Source: Oligoflexia bacterium (GTDB taxonomy: Bacteria > Bdellovibrionota > Bdellovibrionia > JABDDW01). Taken from it: a stretch of DNA of 64,000 nt. The position numbers and the translations under genes are program-made. The notes beneath the pieces are model-generated. The model made no database searches, was not told where the DNA came from, and saw only the letters and a list, made by a program, of their open reading frames with translations. The stretch spans positions 1-64,000 of the forward strand of contig JAWXAT010000025.1 of NCBI GenBank assembly GCA_034439615.1, given 5' to 3'. Positions 2,812 through 29,016 of the stretch are shown here, piece by piece (the stretch's first letter is position 1; each line of letters begins with the position of its first letter).

Positions 2812-4773
2812 CTACTCTTGAGCCTGAAAAACAAACGGATAACTAACATCAGCTATCTGATTGGCTGGAGGCTCAGGAAATTTCCAAGTTCTTAAACGCG
2901 CCACTGCGCAATTTTCTACTTCTGATGAATTCATTGTGGTGGCCTTAATACCCGCTTCTAAAACATTGCCACCGGGACCAATCGACCAACGGATCGTAAT
3001 TTTTCCGTAGAGACTTGGTTCCTTGTTCAAACCTTTTTCATAACAAGCTTGAATTTGTTTTAAGTTTGCCTTTACAACTCGTCTGATAGCTTCTTTATCA
3101 ATGCCGGGTGAGAATGTTGCTTCATCACCGCCAGGTAATACTGTTGCGTTTTTCTTCGCACCTAAATTTCCAGTACCGTAACCTGAAACGCCTCCACCTC
3201 GGCCTTTTGTATTCACTCCTGAAATACCGACAGTTGCTGTACCTTGCCCACCTGCTCCGGTTTCTCTTAAACCCGCTCCGGGTGTAATACCTGCTCCCGC
3301 CGCTTCAGCTCCTTCACCAGTTGCTGATTTACTAAGACCCGCGACATTTCCTGAACCTTGAAATGCTTTACTTAATTGATCTTGCACACCCTTTGTTCCA
3401 AACACGCTGAGTACACCAGTTTTACTTACATCTTTAGCTGCTGATTTTGCACCCGTGTCAGCACTTTTTCCGGCTTGGATTTTTTGTATGCCTTTGCTTT
3501 TTCCTGCTTTGTCAGTGGTAGGAATTTTTTTGGTACTTTGACTCTTATTGGGTTTTGCATCTTGTGATGCGCCCTCTTCTCCACGCTCTGTGGCTACTTC
3601 TTTATCTTTGATTGCTTCTTGAGCTGTTTTTGCTGATGGCTCTGTTATTTCAGACAAATCAGACACTGGGCGCTTATAGAAAAATTGGGCTTTGCGTGGA
3701 GGAATCGTTTCTTCCTCTTCTTTTTCTGGAAGTGCTGGTGCGTAAATGAATGCGTAAAAAATAAAAAGTGCCATGCCCATGAGCCCAACAACGAGGCCCG
3801 TGAGCTGATTCACACTGATATCTATAAGCGGAGCAATTCTAGAAAGGGGCGCACTACCAACATAACGAATAATAAGTTGCACACCTTCGCCAAAACTGAT
3901 TTTGATCACCTCACCTTGTTGAAGCGTGTATGTGTAACCAGTTCCGGCACTTGCCATAGAGCCACCGCGGCGTAACTCATCAAATGTTTTTGTTGAATTA
4001 TCTTTAGAGACCTCACCGGTCATATCGGCAGTAAGAATTACCGTAGCACTTCCCTCAATTTTTAATATGGGATGAGAAAGTCTTACTGAGCCAAAAATGG
4101 GAAGAACGATATTATTTTTTGGATGTGATCCAATTTGAACAATTTGTTTTTTATCAAAATGATAGGTGTCGATGACACGGTCTTTCCATGCAAGAACAAC
4201 TTCGACAACATTACCACTACTAGATTTGGTTGTTTCATTAATGCGCGCATTTGACGGTGGAGCGAATGTTCCCTTAGGAGGTTGGCGCACAGTTGTTGAA
4301 CCAATAGTTGCCATGCCAGGGCTTGCAGCTGGCCGTGGAGCTGGTCTTGTTGGCTGATGTTTTGGTAGTTCTTTGGGAAGTTCACTTGGCTTTGTAAAGA
4401 TAGGTTGTGATTTATTTGCCTCGTAGGCAGGCGACGAAGCTGAAGAAGTTTTTTTAGGTTTAGGTACACCAACATGAAACTCTAAAGTGAAATCACCAAT
4501 TTGAAATTCAGAACCACTTTCAATATATGTATCGACGATACGTTGGCCGTTAATGAAGGTTCCGGATTGACTTCCGAGATCACAGAGATGGTATTTGCCG
4601 GATTCACGCTCTTCGAGCATGGCGTGAATGGGTGAAATACTGGCATCATTGATTGCGAGATTAATATCACCTTCTCGCCCAATTACAACTTGTTGATTTG
4701 TGAATTGCTTCACTTCAACGAGTTTGCCATTTTTGAAAATGCGAATAAGAAGTGGTTGCTTGATGTCTGTCAT
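2812..4773 (-). CDS. gltG: GltG-like FHA + TM + TonB-like transducer
   Basis: This 653-residue protein has an FHA domain at about 20-104 (VVIGREG, the S-x-x-H position as SPIHA, and SGTFING). A second, degenerate FHA-like region lies at about 190-310. One TM segment follows at about 323-345, then a charged and glycine-rich periplasmic linker. The C-terminal domain (about 560-653) contains IQACYEKGL, GKITIRWSI and a final TWKFPEP. This C-terminus is the AgmX/PglI TonB-like type. GltG in Myxococcus spans the inner membrane and links the AglRQS motor to periplasmic Glt parts. It overlaps the preceding small gene by 4 bp. The FHA domain implies a phosphothreonine partner, not identified here. Confidence 0.8.
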   Translation of the reverse strand: MTDIKQPLLIRIFKNGKLVEVKQFTNQQVVIGREGDINLAINDASISPIHAMLEERESGKYHLCDLGSQSGTFINGQRIVDTYIESGSEFQIGDFTLEFHVGVPKPKKTSSASSPAYEANKSQPIFTKPSELPKELPKHQPTRPAPRPAASPGMATIGSTTVRQPPKGTFAPPSNARINETTKSSSGNVVEVVLAWKDRVIDTYHFDKKQIVQIGSHPKNNIVLPIFGSVRLSHPILKIEGSATVILTADMTGEVSKDNSTKTFDELRRGGSMASAGTGYTYTLQQGEVIKISFGEGVQLIIRYVGSAPLSRIAPLIDISVNQLTGLVVGLMGMALFIFYAFIYAPALPEKEEEETIPPRKAQFFYKRPVSDLSEITEPSAKTAQEAIKDKEVATERGEEGASQDAKPNKSQSTKKIPTTDKAGKSKGIQKIQAGKSADTGAKSAAKDVSKTGVLSVFGTKGVQDQLSKAFQGSGNVAGLSKSATGEGAEAAGAGITPGAGLRETGAGGQGTATVGISGVNTKGRGGGVSGYGTGNLGAKKNATVLPGGDEATFSPGIDKEAIRRVVKANLKQIQACYEKGLNKEPSLYGKITIRWSIGPGGNVLEAGIKATTMNSSEVENCAVARLRTWKFPEPPANQIADVSYPFVFQAQE

Positions 4774-5060
4774 TTCGCTTTCTCAATATCTTCCGCTGTT
4801 TTGCTCATTTCAGGTACGAAATTCTCTCTGAGCTTTATGAGTTTGCCAAAATTAAATTGTTTCTTCTGTAGCAGATAAAAGAGCTCTGGTTTTTTCACTT
4901 CGCCTTGCACGAGCTGATCTTCGAAATCTACGTTTGTGCGTTTTTGTTTTTGAGCTGGAGAGTTTTGAGCCAAAGCAAGTTCTGCCTGCCACACAAGTAA
5001 AGTGAGACCGAACGTAATTGCTAACAACCAGTGAAATGTCTTGATTGCAAGACTCTTCAA
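4770..5060 (-). CDS. Small exported protein in the GltF position
   Basis: This 96-residue protein has an N-terminal hydrophobic segment (about 11-30) ending ALAQ, so it is exported or membrane-anchored. The remainder is charged and includes VDFEDQLVQGE and RENFVPEM. Genes overlap it by 4 bp on both sides, so it is translated with the GltE-like and GltG-like proteins. Myxococcus has the small protein GltF at the equivalent place between GltE and GltG. I cannot confirm homology from sequence memory, so only the position supports GltF. Confidence 0.6.
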   Translation of the reverse strand: MKSLAIKTFHWLLAITFGLTLLVWQAELALAQNSPAQKQKRTNVDFEDQLVQGEVKKPELFYLLQKKQFNFGKLIKLRENFVPEMSKTAEDIEKAK

Positions 5061-5953
5061 TCGGAAGACTCCTTTTCCGTACTGCTCTTCGAAGCAGTTT
5101 CGGCCTTCTTGGCCAGCTGATTTACCTTGTCCAGTATAGCAGAGTCATTAGAAGCTAAACGTATTTTGTTCAAAAATTTCAAAGCTTTCTTTGGGCGATT
5201 CATATGCTCGACCAATAGCACTGAATAATTGAGTAGGACTGTTGAATTGTTTTCATCTTTAGCCACCGCTCTTTCATAGGTGTCGATGGCTTGTTCAAAT
5301 TTTCCAGTATGGGTGAGGGCGATGCCCAAGTTATTAAGTGTATCTAGACTTTTGTCGCCGTTATCAACTGCAGCTTGAAGTTCTATTGCTGCATTTGGAT
5401 AATTTCTATTTTGCAAATAGATGTTACCCAGATTTGCATGAGCAGCGCGGTTGGTTCCGTCGATTTCAACAGCTCGCTTAAATCGACTCAATGCAGAACG
5501 CAAATTGTCTGTGCGAAATTCAACAAGCCCCAAATTGTTTAATACCGAAGTGTTATTAGGATCTTTCGCTAAAACCTTATTAAAAAGTAGCCGCGCTAAA
5601 TCGTAACGCCCTTGTTCAATGGCCATAATGCCAAGAGCATTGATTACTTTTAGATCATTGGGATTAATTGCCAGAATTTCTGCCGCCACTTCTTGAGCTA
5701 CGCGATAATTTTTAGAGAGCCTCGCATCATTAAATTTTTTGTAATATTCAGCCATTGTGCTTTGGGGCACCGGAGCTTTTTCAGAATTTTCGCTCAATTC
5801 TGGAGATGAAGGGGCATCATCTTCGTCATCTTCATCACCACTTTGATTTGCCACAGATTTTGATGTATCAGTTTCTTTTTTTGCGCCACTTGAACAGCCG
5901 AACAGAGAAAGAGTGAGCGCGCATGAGAGAAGAATCACTAAGTATTTTATCAC
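5057..5953 (-). CDS. gltE: TPR lipoprotein, GltE/AglT-like
   Basis: This 298-residue lipoprotein has a signal peptide ending in the lipobox LFGC with C20 as the lipidated residue. A short acidic linker (EDDEDD) follows, then about five TPR repeats from residue 75 to 270 with typical NNLGLV and HANLGNIYLQ helices. TPR lipoproteins of this kind (AglT/GltE) are periplasmic or outer-membrane parts of the Myxococcus gliding complex. It lies between GltD-like and GltF-position genes with 4-bp overlaps on each side, which supports the assignment beyond the generic TPR fold. Confidence 0.72.
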   Translation of the reverse strand: MIKYLVILLSCALTLSLFGCSSGAKKETDTSKSVANQSGDEDDEDDAPSSPELSENSEKAPVPQSTMAEYYKKFNDARLSKNYRVAQEVAAEILAINPNDLKVINALGIMAIEQGRYDLARLLFNKVLAKDPNNTSVLNNLGLVEFRTDNLRSALSRFKRAVEIDGTNRAAHANLGNIYLQNRNYPNAAIELQAAVDNGDKSLDTLNNLGIALTHTGKFEQAIDTYERAVAKDENNSTVLLNYSVLLVEHMNRPKKALKFLNKIRLASNDSAILDKVNQLAKKAETASKSSTEKESSD

Positions 5954-8900: not shown

Positions 8901-9171
8901 CTTCAAATAGTGGCATATTTGAAGTATTTGTTTTTTGCACATCAGGCAAAGCTAAGGTTTGTTTTTTGATACTGAGATTTTGTGCACCTCGACTTTTTGT
9001 ATCAATATCTTCTAGCATATCCCCAACAGTTTTTTTCTTTGCTGGTAAAGATTTTGTAACCTTTGCGGCTTTACCAACTGACTTCTTTGATTTATTAACT
9101 TTTGCAAACAGCGAGGGAGACGCTGTGAGCACTGCTGTTAAAACTAGTAATTTTAGAAAAGTGGATTTCAT
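5950..9171 (-). CDS. gltD: Large periplasmic TPR protein, GltD/AgmU-like
   Basis: This 1073-residue exported protein has a signal peptide (about 1-23, ending SLFAKV), a low-complexity linker, then TPR/Sel1-like helical repeats nearly to the C-terminus. Length and repeat content fit the Myxococcus gliding protein GltD (AgmU), about 1200 residues. That protein is thought to form the periplasmic scaffold between the inner-membrane motor and outer-membrane parts. It starts 3 bp after the GltC-like gene and overlaps the GltE-like gene by 4 bp. The ortholog call is by size, topology and gene order; the TPR fold alone is not specific. Confidence 0.72.
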   Translation of the reverse strand: MKSTFLKLLVLTAVLTASPSLFAKVNKSKKSVGKAAKVTKSLPAKKKTVGDMLEDIDTKSRGAQNLSIKKQTLALPDVQKTNTSNMPLFEVKPPKSSELFKEAGSDDERLEQITDQGINELYKLTRKYAKSKNRGELWLRLAELYVEKAKYIEYRIQKTYDEQLNAYLAKKISKPRLNLTPSRDYNLKAIKLYEWFLRDFPNDPKVDQALFFLGYNHMEMDQIKKGVGFYQRLTKEYPNSSYVSEAYFALGEYYFDNDKWADALKSYTDLLKNPRARLYTFANYKIAWCQYRMGRVGQGLKTLEQVIKQSRAPTDLEKVEGRRAVSKIRLGSEALKDAVLFYVDVGNYQSSRQYFYQLGGEKAVWIMLEKLAYLYSDTGRKEQAQFVFKQLLEHNPIAPKAFDYQYQIVTNFATSKNQKVYRDELYNWVDRYSVDSTWGRANANNPKLIEDSNILREMALRNYTLQLHRNAQNSQRKQDMHLVKEAYQLYLNKFTEGVKSTEMHFFYAELLFALGDFDNAGKQYRIVAEKDPRGKYFQPAVLNSLLSLEKSLKSDEQVKQIVGNSLESVPFGEIENAFVSAAEYYITTFPKGDKVVDVKFKVGRLHYSYNHLDDALKNFKLVVAQHPRTPFAVYSANLILDIYNLRKDYDGLAREGNQLIRNKDLAQQGFTADVKDVVEKVSFKKAQDLEVAKNYEASANSFAEFARNNPKSSLAFSAIFNAGVNYERAHKIPQAIGFYSRAGRTPSKGNEKLYQKSILLLGKLYEQTAQYEKAAVQYEKYAKENPNDKVTPDLYHNSAIFWEGQKEFGRAIVNYEKYYEKSRRRDRTLALFTIASINEKLNRLKLAQAGYERYLKEGGNDPEKVVEANFKIADINFKLNKIPEAEKGYQRTVAVGHALSEKSKGAGQVWAAEAKFRLTERVYNDFVSIRIPANPQKQGQAIKEKLGLLTKLSTHLAEVIKYDEGNMVIASLTRLGQAYEHMSKAVWNTAIPAGLNKEEEGAYKKGIDGVAEPLKQKAVENYTAAINKSFEINFYNKWTKLSLSKMGEYQPDRYSAPKEIMFHGNKSDDMGIM

Positions 9172-9174
9172 TTC

Positions 9175-10845
9175 TTACTCACAACCTTGCGTTCCTAGAA
9201 AGTGATAATTCCCAATTTCATCGAGCCAGTACTCACCACGAAATGGCCAATACTCATAACCATTTTGAATATAAAAATCGCGATCCTTGTTATCATCTAC
9301 TTGGCTACTCACAAGACCTTTGCCTTGGATTTTCTTTTTTAATTGTTCTTTTTTGCCATTAATCATTTCGTATCGTGCAAAATTATATTGCTCAAAAAGA
9401 TCTGACAATTCCTGTCGCATAGAAACCATATGTGACCTTGCGATCTCGCCAGCTAGTTTCACACTTGTATTTATGCGACCTTTTAGAAGTTCGTTTGCAT
9501 AAATTCCAACAGCAGAACGTCTCCAGCTAACAGGCATCTTATTTGCGATGTCTTGTTCTGCTCTTATTTTTACAATGTAGGCATAGATATGTTTAAAATC
9601 ACCTTCGCGTACGATATCTCGTGAAACCAAGAATGGAACCTTCAATGCCTTACGAGCAGCAGGGTCACCTTTTAGTTGATCAAAATTCTTAATCACACGC
9701 TCTACTTCATTGAAATAACTTATTGGATCAGTATTTCCTTGCGTGAAATCTTCCAAGCCATTTTGTACAGGTTGGTAGATTTTTTCAAACAGGCCTAAGG
9801 TTTTTTCCATTTCATCATATCGACAGATATAGAGATAAACGATTCCACGTAACAAAATTGATTCAGGTAAATAGTAGTCTTCATAAAAAGGTGAGTGCAG
9901 TGAATGAAGATTACTTAATACTGATCTAAATTGTGCCGCACGCATATGTGCCCAACTAGATTCAAAAAGTGCATCATGCCACAAGACAGTGTCACGGGGA
10001 ATTTTTCGGTATATATCAATAGCTTGATCCCATTTATGAGATTGATAATAAATGCGCGCCATACCCATTAGCCCGGCAACACGATCAGTATCAGTGATGC
10101 CTTTGTCCGCGCGATTAGCTACTAAATTAGAAAACGATTTTAATGCACCATTTAAATCATTTTGCTTAACGTATGAAAGCCCTTCTAGATACTTTGCTTT
10201 TGGATAAAAAGCTGAGCTTGCAGGAACGCGCGAAAAATTATCCGCTGCTTTATCCCATTGATTTTTGCGTTGATAATATTCACCAAACCTAAAACGCAGC
10301 ATGTCTTGACTGGCAACTGGAAATTCATCGATATTTACTTTGCTAATTGCATAGTTCAATAATGTGTCATCGTTAAGTGCGTCAGCAGCAAGAGAAAGTT
10401 TTTGCAATGATTGTTTCATATAACGACTATCTGCATTTCGAATCACGTCAACAAATTGAAAAGCGGCAACCTGGTACATTCCCATTTCGTAGAGCATGAG
10501 ACCCAAAACATATTTGATGCGCATTCTTTGTGATACAAAACGAGGGTCACGAGTCATTTTAAAAAGGCGACTACTAGCAGTGGCATAATCTGGAGGATCA
10601 AGCTTTGTTAATGCCAAGGCATTTTTAAGTTCTTGCTCTGCTTGTGCTGATAGTGAGGGCGTTTCAGAAACCTGAGCTGATTTGGGCGCAACATTTGAAG
10701 GCCTAGGTTTATTTGTTTGGCGAACGCGATTATCTGGAATAAATTTTTTCTTTTTCTGAGCATACCCAACACCGCCAGAAGCCATGCAACAGATCAGAGT
10801 TAACAAAAACCATTTTTTCGTAAAAGTTTTTTTAAGGCGCTTCAT
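9175..10845 (-). CDS. gltC: Exported TPR protein, GltC-like
   Basis: This 556-residue protein has a basic N-terminus and a signal peptide (about 11-29, ending GVGYAQ). TPR-like helical repeats span about 75-330, and the helical C-terminal part is not recognised. In Myxococcus the periplasmic TPR protein GltC is encoded beside the outer-membrane beta-barrels GltA and GltB. Here it directly follows two beta-barrel genes, with a 4-bp overlap to the second, and precedes the GltD-like gene. This matches the expected order and supports a role joining outer-membrane and periplasmic parts of the motor. Confidence 0.68.
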   Translation of the reverse strand: MKRLKKTFTKKWFLLTLICCMASGGVGYAQKKKKFIPDNRVRQTNKPRPSNVAPKSAQVSETPSLSAQAEQELKNALALTKLDPPDYATASSRLFKMTRDPRFVSQRMRIKYVLGLMLYEMGMYQVAAFQFVDVIRNADSRYMKQSLQKLSLAADALNDDTLLNYAISKVNIDEFPVASQDMLRFRFGEYYQRKNQWDKAADNFSRVPASSAFYPKAKYLEGLSYVKQNDLNGALKSFSNLVANRADKGITDTDRVAGLMGMARIYYQSHKWDQAIDIYRKIPRDTVLWHDALFESSWAHMRAAQFRSVLSNLHSLHSPFYEDYYLPESILLRGIVYLYICRYDEMEKTLGLFEKIYQPVQNGLEDFTQGNTDPISYFNEVERVIKNFDQLKGDPAARKALKVPFLVSRDIVREGDFKHIYAYIVKIRAEQDIANKMPVSWRRSAVGIYANELLKGRINTSVKLAGEIARSHMVSMRQELSDLFEQYNFARYEMINGKKEQLKKKIQGKGLVSSQVDDNKDRDFYIQNGYEYWPFRGEYWLDEIGNYHFLGTQGCE

Positions 10846-11711
10846 CGATATTTCGCTCCTGGAAAGAAGAAACTCATGCCTATCGTTCCATGAAGGTTTG
10901 TGAATGTGCCACTTGGCCTACTTGTTACTGATGTATCTGATTTGTATGCAAACCAACTGATATCCCATCTAAAAGCAAGCCACTGAGTAATGGCAAAAAG
11001 CTGGCCAGCACCTAAATGCAACGTTGGAGGTTGTGTACCTTGATTTGTTCCAGTTACACCTCCACCTAATAAAAAGTAGAGATCAAAGGGAACAATCTTT
11101 GTATTTGTGAATCCAACTTTTCCGTATATAGGTGACCACTTGAAATCTAAACCATAATAAGAAGTAGGCGTTGCAAGAGCTGCCGTACCAACAAATCGTT
11201 CACTGTTAAGTTCGCTTGTAACTGTTTTTGAAGTAGTACTAAAACCAGTCGCAAGGGCTTCAACACCGTAATGCTCATTGAAGTGATAACCAAATCTTCC
11301 ACCGAAAACAATGTTGTTAAAAAAAGCATCGTTCATTACAAGACCAAAATTTGGAAAAAATTCAAAACGCTTTGTTTTTGGCAAAAACCTTTTATTAATA
11401 ACCGCAATATCACTAAACGGAGCCAATGTACCAAGCCCCGAAAGTTCAGCACGCTTGCGTGGTTGATTTGTCGCAGGTGTTACAGGTATTGGTGTTGCCG
11501 CAGGCATTGCATCTAGCTCTGATTTAATTTCTGATTCATCTGGAGGTGCTGGCTCAAGTGAATTAGGAGCAGGTGACCAAGAAGGATTTGGGTTTACTGG
11601 AACACTTGGATCAAAAGGAATTTCTTGCGCCCACGCACTCATACTGAGTGCGCTCACTAGCACGAGTGAAAAAATAAACTCTCTTGATAATACCTTTATC
11701 ACTTTAACCAT
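10842..11711 (-). CDS. Outer-membrane beta-barrel protein, GltA/GltB type
   Basis: This 289-residue protein has a signal peptide (ending MSAWAQ), a proline-rich linker (about 30-85) and an eight-stranded-type beta-barrel ending in FFFPGAKYR. It shares patterned segments with the barrel encoded just upstream. FGYHFNEHYG matches LNYHFSEMHG, and FKWSPIYGKVGF matches YEFTPYYGKISI. The pair therefore looks like ancient duplicates. Myxococcus GltA and GltB are a similar pair of outer-membrane barrels. I cannot say which of the two this is. The proline-rich linker could reach periplasmic partners. Confidence 0.7.
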   Translation of the reverse strand: MVKVIKVLSREFIFSLVLVSALSMSAWAQEIPFDPSVPVNPNPSWSPAPNSLEPAPPDESEIKSELDAMPAATPIPVTPATNQPRKRAELSGLGTLAPFSDIAVINKRFLPKTKRFEFFPNFGLVMNDAFFNNIVFGGRFGYHFNEHYGVEALATGFSTTSKTVTSELNSERFVGTAALATPTSYYGLDFKWSPIYGKVGFTNTKIVPFDLYFLLGGGVTGTNQGTQPPTLHLGAGQLFAITQWLAFRWDISWFAYKSDTSVTSRPSGTFTNLHGTIGMSFFFPGAKYR

Positions 11712-24939: not shown

Positions 24940-25227
24940 TTAATCAATAGTTGGATCAAATGCGCGGAGGGTCGGCTCTTCTTCTCCATGAAAAATCTTT
25001 GCCTCAGGCTTAATCTCAACCCGTTTTTGATGCAATAGGGGTCGTGACATCTCGACTTGCTGATTTAATTGATTGAGTAATTTGCTGTAGGCATTAGCAG
25101 GAACATAAATCCCCTGCTCCCATTCACTAATAGTCTGCTGACGACACCCAAGTGCTTGGGCAAACTCTATTTGTGTGAGTTTAAGTTTAAGCCTAAGTTC
25201 TCGTACTGAGTCTTTGTTCCAGGTCAT
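24940..25227 (-). CDS. Small XRE-family helix-turn-helix regulator
   Basis: This 95-residue protein has an N-terminal Cro/C1-type helix-turn-helix (about 6-60, LKLTQIEFAQALGCRQQTISEWEQG) and a charged tail ending EEEPTLRAFDPTID. It is probably a DNA-binding repressor or regulator. The inverted repeat ATATTGT-N11-ACAATAT lies just upstream of its start (25232-25256) and is a good candidate for autoregulation. No toxin partner is visible on either side, so an antitoxin role is not supported. Confidence 0.8.
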   Translation of the reverse strand: MTWNKDSVRELRLKLKLTQIEFAQALGCRQQTISEWEQGIYVPANAYSKLLNQLNQQVEMSRPLLHQKRVEIKPEAKIFHGEEEPTLRAFDPTID

Positions 25228-25272: not shown

Positions 25273-27300
25273 CTATTTACGTCGACCCTTGTTCAGACGT
25301 TCTGTGTAACTTGAATGTTGGTCATAACTATTGGCACCAGAAGTAATGGGTTGATTCTCAACGATATTAGGATAATTTTCCTTAAAAACAATACTGCGGC
25401 TACGTACGTTTCCTTCAGAAATGCTTTCATTGTCCGCGAACACCAAGACTTGCACTTTTCCAAACTCATCGATAACACCTAAACCTTGAACCCAATTACT
25501 AGGGGCTGTGTTATAACCTATTCGTTTTTTGGTAGAAGTTCCAACAACTGCCGTGTCATTTATGACGTTAACTGTATGTGTGTGACCGGATGTGGATTTT
25601 CCAAATATTGCACGAAGTGCTTTTGGAGATACACTTTTACTTCCGCCAGCTCCCTCATGACCATGGGCTCCAGCTTGAACAGCACTTCCACGAGGACCAA
25701 TTTTGAAATTTTCAGGTAAGAAAACAACACGTTTTGGATATTCAAGTCCAAATTTTTTCAAACCATATTCAACTGGATCTTCACCACGCAATGCTGCTGC
25801 AGCAAGCTCAACACCCAATGCATAATTAATAGGATCAGTTACATATCGAGCTTCACTGAGCCATCGATGAATCCACTCATTGTTGTGATTAGATTTTTTC
25901 ATACCCACAACAACTCTGCTTGACAGACTATGGATTGCATTTATTTCTGTTGCACCAGCACGAAATTCTTTTGCTAAATCAAGTTCACCTTTTTTAAATC
26001 TCTCAGCTCTTGTTGTAATGCTTTTTTGTTCGTGATGACTGATAGAATGCATATCTAAAAAATCATTGGTTAAAACCATCTCGGGATCAAATTTACTAAT
26101 GAGCTCTCCAAGATACTGCGCATAAATCGCATCATGCATACCAACGTGAGTATCACCTAATTCAATTGCTTTTATGATTAAACGCCGTGAGCCTTCAGCC
26201 GTATAAAACATACGTCCATCAGAAAAACCTTTGCCAGCCTCTGAGTAACTGACATTTCTAATGTGAAACTTAGCAAATTTTTGCCCTTTTAAAATTGCAC
26301 CTGCACCATTTGTTTTTTCTACAATTAATGCTCCAAAAAAATGATCATTTTCCGTGAGCCAGGCAGTACGTTGACCAATGGGATGATCCCCTCGGTAGTA
26401 GGGCATTGTCAAAGAACCAGTCGTGTTAATCGAATGTGGATTAATATCGTTATCCGCAGTGTGGATAAATTTTCTCATCAAGATAGGAGCACCAACAATC
26501 TGTGATTGCCCGCGTTCTGCTAAAATATCAAGCCCCATAAGTGGATTACGCAATTTTGCCATAAGGGGAATGTTATTAATTCTAAGCTCTGGGCTTAAAT
26601 CGATAGAATTAGTAACGATATGTACACCTGGAGTATCAAGTAAAAGCGGATCCAAGCCTTCGGTGATCATGGTAACTGGTAAAATTAAAATCTCAGCATC
26701 ATTTTCTTTTGAATATCTTAAGAGTGCATCAAAAAATGATTTGTTAACCGGTGCCCCAGCAGCAACAGACACTACAATAAATCGGGTACGTGTCTTTAGT
26801 GCTTTTTGTAGCTTGTCACGTCTTTCTTTAGAGCGAAACATATCAGACATAACACGAATAAATGATGACGGTTTAGACTCACGAGAGTCTTTTTTGAGTT
26901 CTTCAAAATTTTCAAAAAGTCGACCTGACTTTACAAGGCTGCTCAGTATGTTTTCAGGTACTTCCATTGAAGAAGCTAAATCTTCAAACTTTGCTTCGAC
27001 GCCAATTCTTTTACAAAGCTTTGCGTATTCAAAAATAATGTGATTGCGAAGCACTTCTTTTGCAGTTGAAGAATAATCTTTTACGTTAATCCAGGCGTAT
27101 CGTTCTTTTATATCTTTTATTTCTTCTGCAAAAGATAAGGCATCAGCATGTTTGGCGTCGTATTTTTGCCCTTCCGTTGAAGAAACCTCTGCCAATGTTG
27201 TTTTACACGATGTGCTTAAACCAGATTTATCTTTTTTAACAACACCCGCTTGAACAGAAAGTGCAAAAGATAAGCTAAGAGCAATTAATAAAGTTTTCAT
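25273..27300 (-). CDS. Exported calcineurin-like phosphoesterase resembling phage T5 A1
   Basis: This 675-residue protein has a cleavable signal peptide (1-18, ending VQAG). The C-terminal half carries the five calcineurin-like metallophosphoesterase motifs in order: D-T-H (383-385), ND-x-x-D (412-416), N-H-N (471-473), GHE (547-549) and GHTH (572-575). The segment before them (about 171-320, with VVSVAAGAPVNKSFFDALL and ILILPV) and the STSGHTHT context recall the phage T5 A1 family, which acts in host DNA degradation. That likeness is from memory. The signal peptide means it acts outside the cytoplasm. It overlaps the upstream HAD gene by 4 bp. The substrate (DNA, nucleotide or other phosphoester) is unproven. 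Confidence 0.65.
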   Translation of the reverse strand: MKTLLIALSLSFALSVQAGVVKKDKSGLSTSCKTTLAEVSSTEGQKYDAKHADALSFAEEIKDIKERYAWINVKDYSSTAKEVLRNHIIFEYAKLCKRIGVEAKFEDLASSMEVPENILSSLVKSGRLFENFEELKKDSRESKPSSFIRVMSDMFRSKERRDKLQKALKTRTRFIVVSVAAGAPVNKSFFDALLRYSKENDAEILILPVTMITEGLDPLLLDTPGVHIVTNSIDLSPELRINNIPLMAKLRNPLMGLDILAERGQSQIVGAPILMRKFIHTADNDINPHSINTTGSLTMPYYRGDHPIGQRTAWLTENDHFFGALIVEKTNGAGAILKGQKFAKFHIRNVSYSEAGKGFSDGRMFYTAEGSRRLIIKAIELGDTHVGMHDAIYAQYLGELISKFDPEMVLTNDFLDMHSISHHEQKSITTRAERFKKGELDLAKEFRAGATEINAIHSLSSRVVVGMKKSNHNNEWIHRWLSEARYVTDPINYALGVELAAAALRGEDPVEYGLKKFGLEYPKRVVFLPENFKIGPRGSAVQAGAHGHEGAGGSKSVSPKALRAIFGKSTSGHTHTVNVINDTAVVGTSTKKRIGYNTAPSNWVQGLGVIDEFGKVQVLVFADNESISEGNVRSRSIVFKENYPNIVENQPITSGANSYDQHSSYTERLNKGRRK

Positions 27301-28316
27301 CGAGATCTCCCACCAAGTTTCCCGAGGTTAATCTCGCAACTCATGATATCAAAATTTCCGTATGTCCCATTGTTGAGGAGTTCATAGAATTGAGGCTTTT
27401 GAGTGGTCTTAACTTCTGTATCATGACCTGAATTAAAAATAGCAACGCGTGGAGCATTGTGACTGAGTACCAGATTCTTTAATAATACTTCAGCTGCCTT
27501 GATCATCTCTTGGTTGTCATCGGCATAAACTAAAACCTGTTTATCAGGGCCAGGAGGTTTATTATTGATATCGATAGCTATGAGCTCAAGAAGTTTTGCT
27601 TTTTTTTCAACAGGTGTTTTTCCTAGATAGTCATACTTTGGATCACCAAGGCAGAAAATATTATCCATATCAGGAAGATTTTTAATGTACTTTTTTGTTT
27701 GTAAATATTGAAAAAATTCAAGCCATTCACGTTTTGTATGCCAACGCATTGTCACAAGTAGAAATCTTTTTGCTGTCTCTTCATTAGCCAGCATATGAAT
27801 CATGTAATCCCAAAAAGGACCTTGCATGACTTTGGATTCTTTTTTAACTCGCTTTTCGCCCTCTTTAAAATCATCAAGTAAAACGTTTTCCCCACGCATC
27901 GAGGGGCGAAAATTCAAGTAAGAATCTGGGTCTCGGAGATAGTACCTACCTGGAAGTATTTTTGATCCGTCTTCAAGAGTAACTTCTAAATTTACAGCAC
28001 CTGGTGTTTCTGCATCGAGAGCAAGATCATTTTTAATGCGCTCTAAATCAACGTTCGTTACAATGACTGAGTCAGGAAGTAATTGATGCTTCACCATCAT
28101 ACTTGGACGATCTTTGAGACGAAACAAAACACGACGACCTGGCATTGCCCCATTTTTTTTCCAACGATCTTCGAATAGATTTCCGTCAAAATCAGAAGCA
28201 ACATAGATAATTAGTTTTTGTTCGGTAACTTGTTTAACCTTCTTAGCCGCAAAGACGTAAGAGGTTGATGCGATGGAACTGACTACAATAATAAGCAAAG
28301 CAATTGAGTTCATCAT
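27297..28316 (-). CDS. Exported HAD-superfamily phosphatase or nucleotidase
   Basis: This protein of about 339 residues has a signal peptide ending YVFAA. HAD motif I is ASDFDGNLF (both Asp present), a motif II-like LLVTMRW follows, and motif III is VLVYADDNQEM with paired Asp. A large insert between motifs I and II could be a cap. HAD enzymes of this kind hydrolyse phosphomonoesters such as nucleotides. It overlaps the start of the phosphoesterase gene by 4 bp, so the two exported enzymes are coupled. A TTG lies further upstream at 28334, but ATG 28316 or 28313 fits the signal peptide better. The substrate is not known. Confidence 0.65.
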   Translation of the reverse strand: MMNSIALLIIVVSSIASTSYVFAAKKVKQVTEQKLIIYVASDFDGNLFEDRWKKNGAMPGRRVLFRLKDRPSMMVKHQLLPDSVIVTNVDLERIKNDLALDAETPGAVNLEVTLEDGSKILPGRYYLRDPDSYLNFRPSMRGENVLLDDFKEGEKRVKKESKVMQGPFWDYMIHMLANEETAKRFLLVTMRWHTKREWLEFFQYLQTKKYIKNLPDMDNIFCLGDPKYDYLGKTPVEKKAKLLELIAIDINNKPPGPDKQVLVYADDNQEMIKAAEVLLKNLVLSHNAPRVAIFNSGHDTEVKTTQKPQFYELLNNGTYGNFDIMSCEINLGKLGGRSR

Positions 28317-28540
28317 ATAGTTTCTGCAAAGCAACTACGATGCCACAAAAACCATTTTCACGAGCATTCTTACGGGTTTATTGGCTATTTTATAAATGCT
28401 AATATTATAAGTAACTTACTATCATTTGAACGCACGTTTGAGGAGCTACAAAACCTAACACTATAAGTTTTAGCCTGACCAAATTCTTGTCAAAAAACCT
28501 ATTTTAGGTATTTACGACATAATCTCATTGGGGACAGGAA

Positions 28541-28584: not shown

Positions 28585-29016
28585 TTATGCAGACAAAATT
28601 TCTTCAATATCGAATTCCGGAAAAACTTTTTTTATAAGCACTAAGGTAGATAGTTGTGGATTTGCTGTGTCCGAAATTTCTAGTCGTTGATAACTATAAA
28701 GGTTTTTAAACCCCATTTTGTTGGCAACTTCTTTTTGTGTCATCTTGTGGCTTAATCGAAGATGCCTTAGATAAAAAGCAAAGGCAATTTGTGGGTTGAC
28801 TGCAATAGATGTAATATTTTGACCACGCAAATTTCTTTTTGGAAGTGGCAGTAGAAGCTTTGAATCAGCAGGTTCGTCTAAATATAAATTAAGTGCTTCT
28901 TCCATATTTTTTTTAAGCTCTTCAATTGAATGAGCCTGTGTCATGCAGCCACTTAATTCAAGACATTCTGCCCAATAGCCTTTGCCCTCTTTATGGGTTT
29001 TAAAGTGGTATTTCAT
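28585..29016 (-). CDS. hicB: HicB-family antitoxin with C-terminal helix-turn-helix
   Basis: This 143-residue protein has a HicB partial RNase-H-like fold at about 1-65 (GYWAECLELSGCMTQAHSIEELKKNMEEAL) and an XRE-type helix-turn-helix at about 80-135 (KMTQKEVANKMGF). It would bind and inhibit HicA and repress its own promoter. It starts 9 bp after the hicA stop with AGGAG as ribosome-binding site. The perfect palindrome between the -35 and -10 of the promoter upstream of hicA is the likely operator. Confidence 0.88.
   Translation of the reverse strand: MKYHFKTHKEGKGYWAECLELSGCMTQAHSIEELKKNMEEALNLYLDEPADSKLLLPLPKRNLRGQNITSIAVNPQIAFAFYLRHLRLSHKMTQKEVANKMGFKNLYSYQRLEISDTANPQLSTLVLIKKVFPEFDIEEILSA

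Follow-up and report, generated by a model that had tools for sequence, protein, structure and literature searches.

The A1 protein of bacteriophage T5 acts within the infected cell. Its gene lies close to dmp on the same strand, with two genes between them, and Dmp carries the HAD-type motif DLDGT; an earlier note on the DNA analysed here had correctly placed a deoxynucleotide monophosphatase near A1 in this phage. A1 is reported to be essential for host DNA degradation and is not stated to be the nuclease itself (PMC13250531). No paper on the structure of T5 A1 was found in the literature searched, and sequence and structure searches found no solved structure of any A1 relative. In Bdellovibrio itself, other secreted nucleases are believed to break prey DNA down to nucleotides (PMC7925074).

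The window, a stretch of 64 000 nucleotides from a Bdellovibrionota genome of 3.0 Mb, carries two open reading frames on the minus strand that are predicted to encode a pair of exported proteins. The first gene of the operon (27297..28316, minus strand) encodes a HAD-family protein of 339 amino acids; its ATG start is at 28316, and a TTG at 28334 is also possible. The second (25273..27300, minus strand) encodes a metallophosphoesterase of the T5 A1 family, 675 amino acids long and a predicted nuclease, assigned by PHROG_1745, tblastn and hhalign (see below). The stop codon of the first and the start codon of the second overlap by 4 bp (ATGA), as the earlier note had described. The signal peptides that it had given to both proteins are plausible and of the Sec type, judged on inspection and with a simple rule based on hydrophobicity. 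The predicted signal peptide of the HAD-like protein covers residues 1–23 (28248..28316, minus strand; MMNSIALLIIVVSSIASTSYVFA|AKK, read directly) and that of the A1-like protein residues 1–18 (27247..27300, minus strand; MKTLLIALSLSFALSVQA|G); hydrophobic N-termini are also found in the homologues of the former and in the exported homologues of the latter.

The neighbours of the pair are ordinary chromosomal genes. Upstream lies a HicB/HTH-like gene and, further up, a divIC/ftsB-like gene, a trypsin-like protease and enolase, the last two named from sequence; downstream are an HTH gene, polA and a fliL-like gene. A prophage origin of the locus is not favoured, because polA, the fliL-like and divIC/ftsB-like genes and enolase flank it. 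For the small HicB/HTH-like (28585–29016) and MqsA/HTH-like (24940–25227) genes that flank the pair on the same strand, no toxin partner is evident.

Sequence comparison confirms true homology between the A1-like protein and A1 of phage T5, a resemblance already suspected from its motifs. It matches PHROG_1745 ('DNA transfer protein') with E = 1.6e-55, the family that T5 A1 itself matches with E = 8.5e-244, and tblastn finds matches to it in 740 phage records. In the profile comparison that had been suggested, hhalign aligned a profile of 51 homologues with T5 A1 over 438 columns, the full catalytic core (probability 100%, E = 1.2e-60). No Pfam model matches either the A1-like protein or T5 A1, and no NCBIfam model matches the A1-like protein.

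The calcineurin-like motifs read earlier in this protein are present and their metal ligands are intact. Residues D383, H385, D413, N471, H472, H546 and H575 are invariant in all 28 exported and all 32 viral sequences compared, and in 11 others. In the window they are found, all on the minus strand, in the motif GDTHVG (D383 and H385; 26140..26157), at D413 (26062..26064), at N471–H472 (25885..25890), at H546 within HGH (25663..25665) and in the motif GHTH, residues 572–575 (25576..25587). The exception to this constancy is H573, the first histidine of the last motif, which is conserved in 24 of the 28 exported proteins and replaced by aspartate in four (ADSH, GDRH or ADAH; loci L016, L019 and L020 and one more), possibly a ligand change. 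The AlphaFold model of the protein is confident (pLDDT 84.7, pTM 0.83). Its best viral structure matches include phage metallophosphoesterases, with E values down to 4.5e-43, and recombination endonucleases rank lower among them. Foldseek comparison with solved structures gave no significant match, the most probable being LpxH, another metallophosphoesterase (probability 0.6–0.9, E 0.04–0.2).

All four motifs of the HAD superfamily are present in the first protein, again on the minus strand: motif I is DFDGN (residues 42–46; 28179..28193), motif II is T-M-R (189–191; 27744..27752), motif III is Lys239 (27600..27602) and motif IV is the acidic pair DD (266–267; 27516..27521). Among the homologues, DxD is kept in 23 of the 24 with a readable motif I, T or S of motif II in 25/25, the lysine in 24/25, and E or D at the first position of motif IV in 25/25. 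The HAD motifs of the earlier note therefore stand; its view that they are typical of nucleotidases found no support, since the protein matches nothing in Pfam, NCBIfam, PHROG, PADLOC or the PDB sequence families, and a nucleotidase identity is a guess. Structure prediction, which had been recommended for both proteins, was informative for A1 and modest for this one: the model, built from only four sequences, has a pLDDT of 65 and no structural match below E 0.2, and the HAD proteins 6aok and 6cgk are among its higher TM values (0.42–0.44 of target length). In one homologue (L014:9707-10936, genome G067) the catalytic DxD (NFN-T) and the lysine are lost, and the A1 partner looks intact; HAD phosphatase activity may therefore be dispensable. 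A distant relative of about 300 amino acids carrying DFDDN (L112:4228-5127 and L113:4454-5386) is nearly universal in the class.

An exported A1 is encoded by 29 of the 369 Bdellovibrionota genomes, and in 27 of these a member of the same HAD family is adjacent to it; none of the other 340 genomes contains this family. Its members matched with E values below 1e-69, the next-best matches (2e-29 and weaker) belonging to a different and widespread family of about 300 amino acids. Co-occurrence in other genomes, whose failure would have counted against the original proposal, is thus clearly found. In the loci read, the HAD gene immediately precedes A1 and often overlaps it; a few pairs are split by contig ends or frameshifts. 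In locus L017 the A1 gene spans 9070–11175. The two genomes with an exported A1 and without the HAD, G362 and G363, belong to one family and are only 76% and 90% complete. The window pair has both traits of the conserved exported HAD–A1 module proposed here, an adjacent upstream HAD gene and terminal cysteine motifs (see below). Genus g10 (probably Bdellovibrio), which has more complete genomes than any other in the class, lacks the exported pair, and its sole A1 is one cytoplasmic copy.

A1 proteins without signal peptide and without HAD partner are encoded in genomes G028, G049 and G197, and the phage A1s sampled lack a signal peptide apart from an occasional hydrophobic start. Further A1-like proteins without signal peptide (L118–L124 and the viral loci) were seen on viral contigs and on contigs that bear the labels archaea, Omnitrophota and Flavobacterium; in several of these proteins a segment at the N-terminus resembles, by eye, a helix-turn-helix. 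In a maximum-likelihood tree made by a quick method, with no root inferred, 28 exported A1s all fall on one side of a single branch (SH-aLRT 96), the phage, archaeal-contig and T5 sequences being on the other, which suggests a single clade of exported A1s, separate from those of phages. The divergence of HAD and A1 is correlated (r = 0.87; 0 of 5000 Mantel permutations), a correlation that shared ancestry alone could give.

Both proteins of the pair carry a cysteine motif at one end, a feature that the earlier note had not picked up. In the window it is CKTTL at the N-terminus of mature A1 (residues 32–36; 27193..27207, minus strand) and CEINL at the C-terminus of the HAD-like protein (residues 327–331; 27324..27338, minus strand), with the cysteine 12 residues from the end. 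All 29 exported A1s with a readable N-terminus have a cysteine after the signal peptide, within residues 21–44, and all 25 HAD proteins have one 5–24 residues from the C-terminus; in both it is mostly the sole cysteine of the mature protein. Among the columns of the alignment of 25 HAD sequences C327 alone is invariant; the catalytic residues vary more. Both motifs fall in low-confidence ends of the models, which presumably are flexible in the proteins.

The two motifs resemble each other genome by genome, for example CHGLF and CDGLF in G072, CVKYLSS and CTKFLSS in G054, CYQYF and CSRYF in G074, and SCRKPTKK and SCRKSARS in G067; those of the window are only loosely alike. The mean similarity between A1 head and HAD tail is 4.76 for partners of the same locus versus −2.4 for shuffled partners, and none of 5000 shuffles was as similar. 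The in-locus excess is 7.46, compared with 0.06 (s.d. 1.07) for random HAD windows. Composition is rejected as the cause by these random windows, and a scar of DNA duplication is not favoured because the codons of the two motifs differ. Such a correspondence between the tail of one protein and the head of the other points strongly to a docking or sorting partner common to both, and can be tested directly.

Other exported proteins were searched for the same motifs. In G074, the pattern C..YF, fixed from the pair alone, occurs within 30 residues of an end in six other exported proteins, versus 0.22 expected. Unrelated exported proteins of this genome with C-x-x-[YF]-[FY] at the mature N-terminus or the C-terminus are found in L021, L022, L280, L284, L289 and L294. 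One of them ends in SACLNYFR (L284:12067-13506), two are encoded by adjacent genes (L280:2980-3780 and 3789-5168), and one combines acyltransferase and GNAT domains, which is unusual with a signal peptide (L022:972-3005). Three other exported proteins of G054, one a trehalase, have C..[YF]LS, a weaker case than G074, and support is weak in G082 and G164; the patterns for these three genomes were chosen after looking. G164 also encodes an exported 2154-residue open reading frame (L245:8735-15199) in which three stretches match Peptidase_M3 and the one cysteine of the mature part is close to the N-terminus (CNIHF). In the sampled parts of G072, G320 and the window's own genome (G000), no other exported protein was found to carry the motif of the pair. 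A lone cysteine near the mature N-terminus occurs in only three of 209 other exported proteins from six such genomes, so that a motif common to all exported proteins is rejected.

We propose that the two genes form an exported module in which an A1 DNase and a HAD phosphatase are co-targeted by a genome-specific cysteine motif, a reading to which we give an even chance. Its observed basis consists of the A1 homology with its metal ligands, the HAD motifs, the signal-peptide-like N-termini, the strict pairing and the matched motifs. Both proteins would be exported by Sec, and the A1-type metallophosphoesterase, otherwise known from phages, would to judge from its family and ligands most likely be a metal-dependent DNase at work outside the cytoplasm. 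The HAD phosphatase, co-translated with A1, would most plausibly dephosphorylate the A1 products. The motif C-x-x-x-hydrophobic, which A1 bears at its N-terminus and HAD at its C-terminus, would send or tether both proteins to the same place, to a common partner or to each other, and in at least one genome other exported proteins may share this destination. Together the two enzymes probably degrade DNA outside the cytoplasm. What we infer beyond this is the DNase activity, the HAD substrate, the binding target of the motif, the final location of the proteins and any role in feeding or predation; predation is not established, because the pair is patchy and genus g10, probably Bdellovibrio, has no exported A1.

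The meaning of the cysteine motifs can be read in two ways. They may serve Bdellovibrionota as a hitherto undescribed tag for sorting or docking that works irrespective of position, with a version specific to each genome that co-evolves with a putative receptor, an idea that we hold tentatively and slightly short of even confidence. The same guarded confidence applies to the proposed versions (C-x-x-Y-F in G074 and C-x-x-[YF]-L-S in G054, at the mature N-terminus or the C-terminus) and to the proposed carriers, namely the A1-like nuclease, the HAD phosphatase, a trehalase, an acyltransferase and peptidases. A less probable explanation is that the two motifs bind each other in a disulfide-linked HAD–A1 heterodimer, equivalent to a split fusion, with no general tag. 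There is usually one mature cysteine per partner, the two lie at facing termini in presumably flexible ends of the models, and the motifs co-vary genome by genome, all as expected of such a dimer. Against it, unrelated exported proteins of G074, of G054 and weakly of other genomes also bear the motif at an end, and the A1s of G362 and G363, where no HAD was found, keep the cysteine, which points to something beyond HAD–A1 pairing alone.

Other doubts concern what the enzymes do. The exported A1 might hydrolyse another phosphoester, for example a lipid or cell-wall precursor, the HAD removing the released phosphate: metallophosphoesterases are versatile, the exported A1s are far diverged from those of phages, and the solved structures most probably matched are those of LpxH, a lipid-precursor pyrophosphatase. 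The whole A1 core is, however, conserved with the phage proteins and the HD..HH motif residues are mostly kept, and we consider this substrate change unlikely. We judge similarly improbable a mainly non-enzymatic HAD, a chaperone, inhibitor or docking subunit made first and travelling with A1; its gene always precedes A1, its C-terminal cysteine is more constant than its catalytic residues, and motif I and the lysine are lost in L014, but nearly every other homologue retains the four HAD motifs. Finally, the pair could be a periplasmic or surface barrier against phage or foreign DNA and not a feeding system. The patchy distribution and a nuclease family common to phages are compatible with this role, which nevertheless seems quite improbable: no PADLOC family is matched, no defence genes were recognized beside the loci read, the partner is phosphatase-like, and a trehalase and peptidases are among the proteins with a similar tag.

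The A1 family is known; an exported version that has its own HAD partner and shares a matched cysteine motif with it appears not to have been described. In the limited literature searched, neither such a pair nor such a cysteine tag was found, and the earlier note likewise knew of no such exported pair. A family known from phage host takeover would here serve as an exported bacterial enzyme, in a strict two-gene unit kept across a phylum that includes predators. If a general sorting tag exists, it would be of a new kind and would account for the placement of exported enzymes in these bacteria.

Among known systems, the dmp–A1 pre-early region of T5 resembles the exported pair in having a HAD-motif nucleotide phosphatase near A1 on the same strand. 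It differs in gene order, in the absence of export from both proteins, and in a Dmp that shares only motif I: hhalign aligned Dmp with the exported HAD over 18 columns around that motif (probability 7.8). The exported HAD family is absent from the phage records and from the sampled viral contigs beside A1 genes. Descent of the pair from dmp–A1 of T5 is rejected, because the two HAD proteins align over motif I alone and the exported HAD is missing from those phage records and viral contigs. The nucleases Bd0934, Bd3507 and others of Bdellovibrio bacteriovorus are likewise exported, belong to the same phylum and serve in prey DNA digestion; they are set apart by their description, the accessible part of which mentions no A1-family member or HAD partner (PMC7925074). 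Among known anti-phage defence systems, no PADLOC model matches the pair. LPXTG/sortase, PEP-CTERM and MYXO-CTERM sorting each depend on a short motif common to unrelated exported proteins; the cysteine motif differs from these in having a lone cysteine without membrane helix or basic tail, in occurring at either end of the protein and in varying in sequence between genomes. Phage T5 A1 itself shares its metal motifs with the exported A1 and is homologous to it throughout the catalytic core, whereas the exported form is distinguished by its signal peptide, its cysteine at the mature N-terminus, its HAD partner and its probable position in a separate clade.
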